The translations under genes were made by a program, and so were the position numbers. From Streptomyces roseifaciens (GTDB taxonomy: Bacteria > Actinomycetota > Actinomycetes > Streptomycetales > Streptomycetaceae), in contig NZ_LNBE01000007.1 of the NCBI RefSeq assembly GCF_001445655.1, positions 1 through 64,000 of the forward strand: a stretch of 64,000 bases of DNA, in the 5' to 3' direction. The notes beneath the pieces were generated by a model. The model had not been told where the DNA came from and did not search any database. It saw only the letters and a list, made by a program, of their open reading frames with translations. Positions 44,178 to 46,638 of this stretch are shown one piece after another. Position 1 is the first letter of the stretch. Every line of letters starts with the position of its first letter.

Positions 44178-44225
44178 CCGGCGTTTCGGGGGCGTACGGG
44201 TGCCCCGCGTACCCAAAGAAGACCT

Positions 44226-44262
44226 TTGGGCTCCTCAAAGTCCGAGTGTTAACGTATTGGAC
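44226..44262 (+). promoter_or_regulatory. Promoter of the leader peptide, probably leaderless transcript
   Basis: TTGGGC (44226-44231) and TAACGT (44250-44255) are spaced 18 nt. A start 7-8 nt after the -10 falls on or just before the ATG at 44263, and no ribosome-binding site precedes that ATG. Confidence 0.5.
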
Positions 44263-44367
44263 ATGAAGACAGCAGCAGCGCACCAGTTCCCCACGGGCCC
44301 CGTGCTCGTGGCGCGCCTGCACGTCGATCTTTGCCGCTGTGTCTCCGCGGCCTGTTGTCGCCGCTGA
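44263..44367 (+). CDS. Cysteine-rich leader peptide (putative cysteine-responsive attenuator)
   Basis: A 34-codon ORF beginning MKTAAAHQF and ending HVDLCRCVSAACCRR, with four cysteines in the last 11 residues. Streptomyces genomes contain many short 'putative leader peptide' ORFs with an HVDLCR-type C-terminus, and mycobacteria have polycysteine leaderless ORFs that attenuate sulfur-metabolism operons when cysteine is plentiful (recalled literature). This ORF has no ribosome site and starts at the predicted transcription start. It precedes a DAACS symporter by 90 nt, so ribosome stalling at its Cys codons could control that transporter. Confidence 0.7.
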   Translation: MKTAAAHQFPTGPVLVARLHVDLCRCVSAACCRR

Positions 44368-44432
44368 CGCCATGTCCACCGCGGCCGGAGATCCTGCGCA
44401 AACGGATTTCCCCGGCGCCTCACGCCCTTTTT
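44342..44432 (+). promoter_or_regulatory. Possible attenuator structures between leader peptide and symporter
   Basis: TCTCC-GC-GGCC (44342-44352) inside the leader can pair with GGCCGGAGA downstream (about 44380-44391), spanning the leader's last Cys codons. Further on, GGCG (44414-44417) and CGCC (44423-44426) are followed by five T (44428-44432), a short terminator-like element. Both are weak and not folded computationally. Confidence 0.3.
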
Positions 44433-44457
44433 CTTCCGTCTGTAACCGGAGCTTCCG

Positions 44458-45789
44458 TTGTCATCGACACCCCCGTCCCCCACGGCGTCCCTGCGCGGGC
44501 GCATACCCAACGTCCCGTTCTGGGCCCAGATCCTGCTCGGTCTCGTCCTCGGCGCCCTGCTCGGCTGGGCCGCCAAGAGCGGTGACATCTCCTGGCTGTC
44601 CACCACGCTGGGCAAGATCGGCGACATCTTCGTCCAGCTGCTGATGCTGGTGATCGCGCCGCTGGTGTTCTTCGCGATCCTGGTGTCGATCACCAACCTG
44701 CGGAACGTCTCCAACGCCGCCCGGCTGGCCACCCGCACCCTGATGTGGTTCATGATCACGTCGCTGATCGCGGTCGTCATCGGCCTCGGCATCGGCCTGC
44801 TCACGGACCCGGGCGCGGGCACCGGCCTGACCGCCGCCGACGGCGCCGAGCCCAAGAAGCACGGCTCCTGGATCGACTTCCTCACCGGGATCGTCCCGAC
44901 CGACATCGTCACGCCCTTCACCGAGCTCAAGGTCCTGCAGATCGTCTTCATGGCCGTGGTCGTGGGCATCGCGATCCTGAAGGTCGGCGAGAAGGCGCAG
45001 CCGGTCCTCACCCTCAGCCACTCCGTGCTGGAGCTGCTGCAGAAGGCCCTGTGGTGGGTCATCAAGCTCGCCCCGCTGGGCACGCTCGGCCTGGTCGGCA
45101 CGGCCATCTCCACGTACGGCTGGAACCTGCTGAGCAAGTACGCGACGTTCACCGCGGACATCTACGTGGGCTGCGCCATCGTGATGTTCGGCGTGTACCC
45201 GCTGCTGCTGGCCGGCGTCGCCAAGGTCAACCCGCTGCAGTTCTTCAAGGGCGCCTGGCCGGCCATCCAGCTGGCCTTCGTCTCCCGCTCCTCGGTCGGC
45301 ACGATGCCGCTGACGCAGAAGGTCACCGAGCGGCTCGGCGTGCCCAAGGAGTACGCGTCCTTCGCGGTGCCGTTCGGCTCGACGACCAAGATGGACGGCT
45401 GCGCCTCGATCTACCCGGCCATCGCCGCGATCTTCGTCGCGCAGGTCTTCGACGTGCCGCTGGAGGTCAAGGACTACATCCTGATCGCCTTCGTCTCGGT
45501 GATCGGCTCTGCCGCGACCGCCGGCCTGACCGGCGCCACGGTGATGCTGACCCTGACGCTGTCGACGCTGGGGCTGCCGATGGCGGGCGTGGGCCTGCTG
45601 CTGGCGATCGACCCGATCGTGGACATGATGCGCACCGCCACGAACGTTGCAGGTCAGTCGGTCGTGCCGATCCTGGTGGCCTCCCGGGAGGGGATCCTGG
45701 ACCGCGCGGCGTACGCGACGGCCGACGGTTCCCGTCTGGAGGACGGCGAGTCCCGCGTGGACGCGCAGCCCCAGCCCGTGGCCGCCTGA
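44458..45789 (+). CDS. Dicarboxylate/amino acid:cation symporter (DAACS/GltP-TcyP family)
   Basis: A 443-residue secondary transporter. About eight helices are visible, with the family re-entrant loop Ser-rich motif SRSSVGTMPLTQ (HP1), the TM7-like FGSTTKMDGCA, HP2 GLTGATVMLTLTLSTLG and TM8 DPIVDMMRTATNVAGQ. Members carry dicarboxylates, glutamate/aspartate or cystine with H+ or Na+. Start TTG 44458 has GGAG at 6 nt. The Cys-rich leader just upstream suggests cystine or another sulfur-linked substrate, but the dicarboxylate residues cannot be excluded by eye. Confidence 0.9.
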   Translation: MSSTPPSPTASLRGRIPNVPFWAQILLGLVLGALLGWAAKSGDISWLSTTLGKIGDIFVQLLMLVIAPLVFFAILVSITNLRNVSNAARLATRTLMWFMITSLIAVVIGLGIGLLTDPGAGTGLTAADGAEPKKHGSWIDFLTGIVPTDIVTPFTELKVLQIVFMAVVVGIAILKVGEKAQPVLTLSHSVLELLQKALWWVIKLAPLGTLGLVGTAISTYGWNLLSKYATFTADIYVGCAIVMFGVYPLLLAGVAKVNPLQFFKGAWPAIQLAFVSRSSVGTMPLTQKVTERLGVPKEYASFAVPFGSTTKMDGCASIYPAIAAIFVAQVFDVPLEVKDYILIAFVSVIGSAATAGLTGATVMLTLTLSTLGLPMAGVGLLLAIDPIVDMMRTATNVAGQSVVPILVASREGILDRAAYATADGSRLEDGESRVDAQPQPVAA

Positions 45790-45907: not shown

Positions 45908-45921
45908 TTACCTGCCGGTAA
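45908..45921. promoter_or_regulatory. Likely TetR operator upstream of the TetR gene
   Basis: TTACCTGCCGGTAA is a palindrome with TTACC/GGTAA arms, flanked by GTAAC (45902-45906) and GTGAC (45923-45927), which extend the symmetry to about 26 bp. It lies just upstream of the TetR start and suggests autoregulation. Confidence 0.55.
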
Positions 45922-45939: not shown

Positions 45940-46638
45940 ATGTTTGTCGTGAATGCTGCACAGACCGACGTACTTCAGGCCCAGGGGAAGCCGAAGGGCA
46001 GGACGAAGCGCATGCCGCGGGAGGTGCGCGAGCGCCAGATGCTCGACGCCGCCGTGGCCGTGTTCGCGCGCCGGGGGTACCGGGCCGCGTCGATGGACGA
46101 GATAGCCGAGCTGGCCGGGGCGTCCAAGCCCCTGGTCTACCTCTACCTGCACTCGAAGGAAGACCTCTTCAGCGCCTGCATCCGGCGCGAGGCGGAGGCG
46201 CTCATCGCGGCCGTCCAGGCGGCGGTGGACCCGGGAGCCCCGGCCGACCGGCGGCTGTGGAACGGGCTGCGCGGGTTCTTCGCGCACACCGCCGCGCACC
46301 CCGACGGCTGGGCGGTGCTGCACTGCCAGGCGCGCACCCACGGGGAGCCCTTCGCGCTGGAGGTGGCCGCGCTGCGGCAGCGGCTCGTGGACGTCGTCAC
46401 CCGGCTGATCACGGAGACGGCCGAGGCCGGCGGCTGCACCGAGCCGCTGCCCGAGGTCGAGGTCGCGGGCCTCGCCCACGCCCTGGTGGGTGCGGCCGAG
46501 TCGCTCGCGGGGTGGTCCAACGAGCGTGACGGCACCGGCTCCTGCGAGCGGCAGACGGCGGAGACGCTCATGAACTTCGCCTGGACGGGGCTGGAGAATC
46601 TGAGGAACGGGCGGCGCTGGGCGCCCGCCCGTTCCTGA
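45940..46638 (+). CDS. TetR-family transcriptional regulator
   Basis: A 232-residue repressor. The HTH occupies about residues 30-75: RQMLDAAVAVFARRGYRAAS then MDEIAELAGASKPLVYLYLH. The ligand domain has LWNGLRGFFAHTAAHPDGWA and ends in a basic tail. ATG 45940 (GGAGG upstream) is used; the conserved part starts only near residue 20. With an operator-like palindrome in its own upstream region and acyl-CoA synthetase genes nearby, it may control fatty-acid use, but the ligand is unknown. Confidence 0.9.
   Translation: MFVVNAAQTDVLQAQGKPKGRTKRMPREVRERQMLDAAVAVFARRGYRAASMDEIAELAGASKPLVYLYLHSKEDLFSACIRREAEALIAAVQAAVDPGAPADRRLWNGLRGFFAHTAAHPDGWAVLHCQARTHGEPFALEVAALRQRLVDVVTRLITETAEAGGCTEPLPEVEVAGLAHALVGAAESLAGWSNERDGTGSCERQTAETLMNFAWTGLENLRNGRRWAPARS
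46603..46636. terminator. Hairpin terminator between TetR gene and the convergent surface-protein gene
   Basis: AGGAACGGGCGG (46603-46614) pairs with CCGCCCGTTCCT (46625-46636), with further pairing toward the loop through a bulge. It overlaps the tetR stop codon and lies 39 nt from the end of the convergent gene. Confidence 0.5.

Follow-up and report, generated by a model that had tools for sequence, protein, structure and literature searches.

A candidate cysteine-sensing leader peptide in front of a DAACS symporter gene in Streptomyces

In Streptomyces roseifaciens a DAACS symporter gene is preceded by a 34-codon ORF whose product, MKTAAAHQFPTGPVLVARLHVDLCRCVSAACCRR, contains four Cys residues, among them an adjacent pair (CC). 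Does this ORF encode a leader peptide, and does it connect the transporter with the cysteine supply? The window analyzed here is the whole 64,000-nt stretch of contig NZ_LNBE01000007.1. An earlier note on this DNA had described the ORF, a TTGGGC/TAACGT promoter, the lack of a ribosome site and a 90-nt gap from the leader stop to the DAACS gene, which begins with TTG at 44458, and all were found as described (Table 1). The ORF core is under amino-acid selection, the ORF keeps a set position relative to a conserved promoter, and it is similar to the leaders of sulfur genes. From these sequence comparisons we favor, with a probability of about 0.7, the reading that the ORF is a cis-acting leader peptide tying transporter expression to cysteine supply.

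Table 1. Features of the leader-symporter locus, in window coordinates
Feature	Position	Strand	Basis
Perfect inverted repeat, 18 bp, 5-nt loop	44138..44178	.	between upstream DUF4229 gene and promoter
CAAAG-N5-CTTTG-N7-CAAAG spanning the -35 box, possible operator	44214..44240	.	comparison of loci, genome pattern search
-35 box TTGGGC	44226..44231	+	reading, alignment of loci
-10 box TAACGT	44250..44255	+	reading, alignment of loci
Leader ORF, 34 codons, predicted leaderless	44263..44367	+	ORF reading, comparison of loci
Conserved leader core RLHVDLCRCVSAACC	44314..44358	+	locus alignment; pN/pS 0.37
UGU codon 11 codons after His (H+11), proposed stall codon	44353..44355	+	codon counts across leaders
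C-rich, G-poor spacer, leader stop to Shine-Dalgarno	44368..44445	+	C>G counts
Shine-Dalgarno GGAG of transporter gene	44448..44451	+	reading, comparison of loci
DAACS (SDF, PF00375) symporter, 443 aa, TTG start	44458..45789	+	Pfam, 345.2 bits

A conserved leader ORF behind a conserved promoter

Of 295 Streptomyces genomes searched, 195 had the transporter (E <= 1e-100), and the 150 loci among these with listed coordinates, window included, formed the locus sample. At 142 of these 150 loci a pattern search placed an RLHVDLCR...C leader before the same transporter, and three variants were added by eye. The pattern demanded the core Leu, His and Leu (or one listed variant), limited V and D, admitted only Cys, Gly or Arg at H+4 (counting codons from the core His) and left H+11 free. 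Because the pattern itself demands part of the core, figures for those core positions are somewhat inflated. Of the eight pattern misses, L104 and L133 are plain variants and L078 is degenerate, all three deviating at positions that the pattern demands; L015, L016, L018, L019 and L105 are without a leader. The leader is thus dispensable in these five, which keep the promoter; in three of them the transporter ATG occupies the leader's place. Such natural losses with the promoter retained are ready-made comparisons. In a second set of 80 named records, which may overlap the first in genomes, the pattern found the leader in 75; the misses were L184, L185 and L213, with the transporter ATG directly after the -10 box, the leader-less L186, and a variant, L225. 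The transporter ATG behind the -10 box, where the leader would be, is thus an arrangement seen in L015, L016 and L018 as well as in L184, L185 and L213, and the N-terminus of the L018 transporter, MKTAVAQ, resembles that of a leader. Of seven DAACS orthologues outside Streptomyces (54-65 percent identity), four have no leader and three are preceded by one of HVDL or YVDL type, in which the H+11 codon is always TGT (L265 read by eye).

Conservation of the Cys codons at orthologous loci had been set beforehand as a check, and it was borne out: among the 142 pattern-found leaders, Cys is present at H+4 in 140 and at H+11 in 139. Cys also stands at H+12, adjoining H+11, in 80 of the 142. Arg immediately precedes the LHVDL core in all 142, and non-Cys residues are conserved as much as the Cys codons. 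The core has a pN/pS of 0.37, compared with 0.95 and 1.53 in the other two frames, and the N-terminal half of the leader has a pN/pS of 1.07, with 0.83 and 0.76 in its other frames. Given this contrast, selection maintains the residues of the C-terminal part and not those of the N-terminal part: the core evolves as protein and the N-terminal half does not. Length differences between start and core are multiples of three, evidence of little weight since in-frame starts had been chosen. Because the leader is present in 142 of 150 listed loci and its coding constraint is frame-specific, a chance origin was rejected; the leader ORF is real and under selection.

The promoter was aligned across loci, L026 being omitted since its stretch contains no promoter. 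In the window 18 nt separate the -35 and -10 boxes, and 7 nt separate TAACGT from the A of the leader ATG, which has no Shine-Dalgarno sequence in front of it. A generic sigma-70 scan detected no promoter at the locus, so that the promoter assignment rests on comparison between loci. The distance from the first base of GTGTTA to the start codon (ATG in 123 and GTG in 17 of 140 loci) is 16-17 nt in 137 of 140. This fixed spacing between start codon and -10 box makes leaderless initiation of the leader ORF likely. Of 141 loci, 118 have the whole CAAAG-N5-CTTTG-N7-CAAAG element, 20 have part of it and 3 lack it. The genome holds one exact copy of the triple element, the next best site having two mismatches, and a search for further sites found none above the control level: with up to three mismatches allowed there were 14, and the reversed pattern had 15. 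As a candidate binding protein, NdgR, which regulates cysteine genes in S. coelicolor, was dismissed because its published motif (PMC4340878) is unlike CAAAG/CTTTG. By eye the element persists in the leader-less loci, with one altered base in L019. The inverted repeat farther upstream is probably the terminator of the upstream unit.

The UGU codon and related leaders

The Cys at H+11 is encoded almost without exception by TGT. Of the 142 Streptomyces DAACS leaders, 139 have Cys at H+11, and in 137 of these the codon is TGT; the H+4 Cys is TGC in 128 of 140. The 75 leaders of the named records have TGT at H+11 in all cases, with TGC (64) or TGT (11) at H+4. A first set of 32 leaders of the class (L003-L007 and L272-L299, L298 being a DAACS leader, minus L287, which has no Cys and falls outside the class) has TGT at H+11 in 30 and TGC in 2; in seven of the 32 a single Cys occurs from the matched motif on, and its codon is UGU in all seven. 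At the same position 40 out-of-sample leaders have TGT (36), TGA (2), TAG (1) or GGG (1) and never TGC, while their other Cys codons are TGC in 22 cases and TGT in 5. Only a few Streptomyces genomes contributed these 40, many of which are orthologous to each other and to the first set, so that nominal p-values for the H+11 counts overstate independence. TGT is rare in genes, making up 27 of 166 Cys codons in the window's likely genes and 3 of 152 in the transporter gene. The three leaders with a stop codon exactly at H+11 (L320, L321 and L322) are of HIDLLR type; L320 and L321 precede weakly glutathione-transferase-like proteins, both just below the Pfam cut-offs.

The window leader was compared with the NCBIfam family NF042934, 'putative leader peptide'. 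The match scores 23.2 bits (E 3.7e-5), below the curated cut-off of 27; the alignment covers positions 2-19 of 19, HVDLxR and a C-terminal Cys being common to both, and like the family as described, the window feature is a short ORF that precedes another gene. In a genome-wide search at E up to 1, nine places matched, five of them above the cut-off and the window sixth with 22 bits; at this threshold 6 of 14 unrelated control genomes also gave matches, all below the cut-off. At E 0.001 none of the 14 controls matched, the window's own match (E 0.002) being weaker than that threshold, and across the phylum 17 of 246 genomes matched, 13 of them above the cut-off. The claim that Streptomyces has many such leaders thus stands, with five above the cut-off in this genome.

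Behind these five leaders are genes for a nitrite/sulfite reductase-type protein, a flavin reductase, a cysteine dioxygenase, a 2OG-Fe(II) oxygenase and a rhodanese, all above the Pfam cut-offs. Of 28 new loci in the phylum, leader and gene could be parsed in 19 and not in 9. Among the genes there is one for a mercaptopyruvate-sulfurtransferase-like rhodanese, and there are gene pairs in which DUF4395 has a rhodanese-like ORF behind it, or a ThiS-type CysO-like protein a cysteine-synthase-like ORF (the second member of both pairs recognized by eye). Others encode SsuA- and SsuB-like proteins, FMN monooxygenases and sulfite/nitrite reductase. The leader of L272, LTKRRAVDLCRVAGCCCCCCSC, from another family of the class, precedes such a DUF4395 and rhodanese-like pair, and the leader of the CysO type, LLVARLHVDLCRLASAIC, closely resembles that of the window. 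DAACS itself stands behind such a leader in another family (L298). Of the gene pieces tested behind the 40 out-of-sample leaders, SsuE- and SfnG-like gene starts were found, and two others gave no match. The NCBIfam matches for leader-linked genes, obtained with pieces of 70-260 aa as queries, are all below the library cut-offs. Where tested, then, the genes behind related HVDLxR leaders are mostly sulfur genes, sulfonate-type genes among them. Together, conservation and family support the earlier note's view of a Cys-containing, translated, probably leaderless leader of the type that precedes cysteine and sulfur genes. That note did not mention the conserved non-Cys residues, the UGU rule, the C-richness of the RNA after the stop, the CAAAG/CTTTG element or the natural losses of the leader.

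Similar systems are known in other actinobacteria. Mycobacterial Cys-containing leaderless ORFs are reported as cysteine-responsive attenuators in PMC9031893 and PMC9094748, which cite Canestrari et al. 2020. As described there, these ORFs share with the present leaders the short length, the Cys residues, the probable leaderless start and the position before sulfur genes; they differ in having one long Cys run, whereas the leaders here have 2-6 Cys from the core on, a strong RLHVDLCR core and, in the window's case, a symporter downstream. The leader LTKRRAVDLCRVAGCCCCCCSC resembles an ORF that PMC4633059 describes in front of the mycobacterial cysA2, in which Cys codons are clustered. In S. 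lividans, according to PMC8079986, leuL, trpL and metL are short, mostly leaderless ORFs before amino-acid genes, and several of the leaders, like the window leader, are without a typical terminator. None of the eight listed is assigned to Cys; metL, MSTTSDRTPATEATTTPGARCMCRRMCAF, is assigned to Met and has three Cys, and it may sense cysteine besides methionine. Among the papers accessible to the literature searches none dealt with the present leaders: HVDLCR, HVDLVR and HVDLLR were absent, and HVDLRR occurred in one unrelated paper.

A proposed mechanism and its alternatives

In the mechanism that we propose, the mRNA would begin at, or within a base of, the leader ATG, and the ribosome would load on the leader without a Shine-Dalgarno sequence. 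With ample Cys-tRNA the ribosome would run to the stop codon and leave, and the C-rich RNA behind the stop, left naked, would permit attenuation, by Rho-type termination or by a hairpin in some clades, so that little transporter would be made. When Cys-tRNA is short, the ribosome would halt at the conserved UGU near the stop, perhaps with HVDLxR in the exit tunnel contributing to the arrest, and by shielding the RNA behind it would allow the transporter to be made. A tnaC-type arrest leader with Rho control likewise has a stall near the stop codon and C-rich RNA behind it. The proposed stall position and the C-rich RNA are alike in the two systems; ligand and peptide differ, and the role of Rho here is one that we infer. 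In the first 60 nt after the leader stop, C exceeds G at 140 of 140 loci, compared with 85 of 140 for a control region upstream of the promoter; the same excess is found after 32 of 32 first-set and 39 of 40 out-of-sample related leaders, against 15 of 28 generic window regions. As evidence for Rho this C-richness is indirect. Points that weigh against the proposed mechanism are the NF042934 score below the cut-off, the five loci and the four orthologues outside Streptomyces that have no leader, the low stability of the spacer RNA, the negative search for an intrinsic terminator, and the transporter's nearness to an aspartate transporter.

If the locus were instead a classical trp-type attenuator, competing hairpins near the leader end would decide termination, and the Cys codons would be needed and the peptide not. 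The SAVC clade offers some encouragement for this: a leader-internal hairpin (arms GCGGT and GCCGC) keeps its five pairs in 37 of 37 non-redundant sequences, with no double changes, and in a post-stop hairpin one pair, formed in 29 of 37 sequences, has undergone nine double changes and another pair one. The post-stop motif [AG]GCGGC is found in 39 of 40 SAVC and 30 of 43 SAAC loci against 7 percent of shuffles, yet in only 1 of 14 RR and 1 of 23 SANC loci. No intrinsic terminator was found at the locus, a hairpin common to all clades was sought in folds and alignments and not found, alifold gave no consensus structure in SAAC, the window's clade, and Rfam returned only three microRNA matches, all below the gathering scores. 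In stability the spacer RNA hardly exceeds its shuffles, with clade means of z between -0.5 and -0.7 and a z of -1.29 in the window. The conserved RLHVDL.R would moreover be left unexplained, and we consider a trp-type attenuator doubtful. Since the hairpins vary by clade and the stability is near that of shuffles, a Rho-type outcome at the C-rich spacer is what we infer and prefer. Somewhat less probable is translational attenuation, in which RNA pairing would mask the transporter's Shine-Dalgarno and a stalled ribosome would free it. A small CGGAG..TCCG hairpin is present at this site (window 44447-44457) and was seen in several loci and folds, and of the 107 transporter genes whose start codon could be assigned (35 of 142 are unassigned), 106 begin with GTG or TTG, which would suit such control; against it, inspection of 38 folds revealed no conserved pairing between leader and Shine-Dalgarno, and the near-shuffle spacer stability is no help to it.

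Two further explanations dispense with a sensing leader. That the promoter alone matters, with a protein at CAAAG/CTTTG controlling a transporter of Asp, Glu or C4-dicarboxylate and the leader as mere decoration, would agree with the element's persistence where the leader is lost and with an aspartate transporter as the nearest solved relative; frame-specific selection on the core and the UGU rule argue against it and make it unlikely. Amino-acid selection on the core would also be expected of a small protein acting in trans, a very improbable reading given the unconstrained N-terminal half, the fixed place before the transporter, the occurrence of related leaders before unrelated sulfur genes and the codon-level nature of the UGU rule.

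Returning to the cis-acting leader, we tentatively suggest that the HVDLxR leaders may form one actinobacterial family of nascent-chain-assisted stall sensors. These would halt at the fixed H+11 codon, which would be UGU in sensors of cysteine and, in a few leaders that precede glutathione-transferase-like genes, a stop codon. The stall would be made by the tunnel peptide rather than by a Cys run, in keeping with the seven first-set leaders that have a single Cys, and the stalled ribosome would guard a C-rich Rho-entry region. Sharp predictions at the codon level, namely UGU at H+11, HVDLxR at a constant distance and C-rich RNA after the stop, can tell codon counting from peptide-assisted arrest across the actinobacterial leader class.

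The transporter and its possible cargo

The PF00375 match of the transporter, 345.2 bits against a cut-off of 27.9, places it in the DAACS/SDF family; four NCBIfam models also match it, all below their cut-offs. The earlier note had proposed import of cystine or another sulfur compound and had pointed out that the family includes the cystine importers of TcyP type. The transporter has several features in common with E. coli TcyP: in TM7 a GCAxxYP motif containing one inserted residue, in HP1 RSS, in TM8 [DE]P..DM.RT, and no Asp at GltPh position 405. The GCAxxYP motif with the inserted residue was found in four of four TcyP proteins compared and in none of six other DAACS proteins outside the window's clade. 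The transporter differs in overall relatedness, with 29 percent identity to TcyP vs 38 percent to the 9bgz aspartate transporter, its nearest solved relative. In the tree it lies in its own actinobacterial DAACS clade (support 0.998), with TcyP elsewhere (node support 0.41), so that the two do not group in this tree. A profile of the window's clade scored 9bgz at 308, GltPh at 224, E. coli TcyP at 222, GltP at 197 and DctA at 170 bits. Cystine import is thus possible and not established.

Relative to GltPh, the transporter retains Arg276, Asp312, Asp394, Arg397 and Asn401; Asn310 is replaced by Lys and Asp405 by Gln, a Cys is inserted before 314, and position 314 aligns with Ala. Acidic sulfur analogues would suit the Asp and Arg residues that are kept, given the roles ascribed to these positions. 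Because the proposed mechanism ties the leader to cysteine supply, the cargo would probably be a sulfur amino acid, either cystine or cysteine or else an acidic analogue, for instance cysteate or cysteine sulfinate. The likeness of the leader to those before sulfur genes also suggests that the transporter serves cysteine supply. A secondary transporter is hereby added to the Streptomyces genes with cysteine-type leaders, and because of that leader a sulfur amino-acid importer is suggested where records read dicarboxylate/amino acid:cation symporter. Downstream of the transporter gene an imperfect palindrome, TTACCTGCCGGTAA, lies at 45908-45921 before a TetR-type gene at 45940 and is perhaps that gene's own operator.
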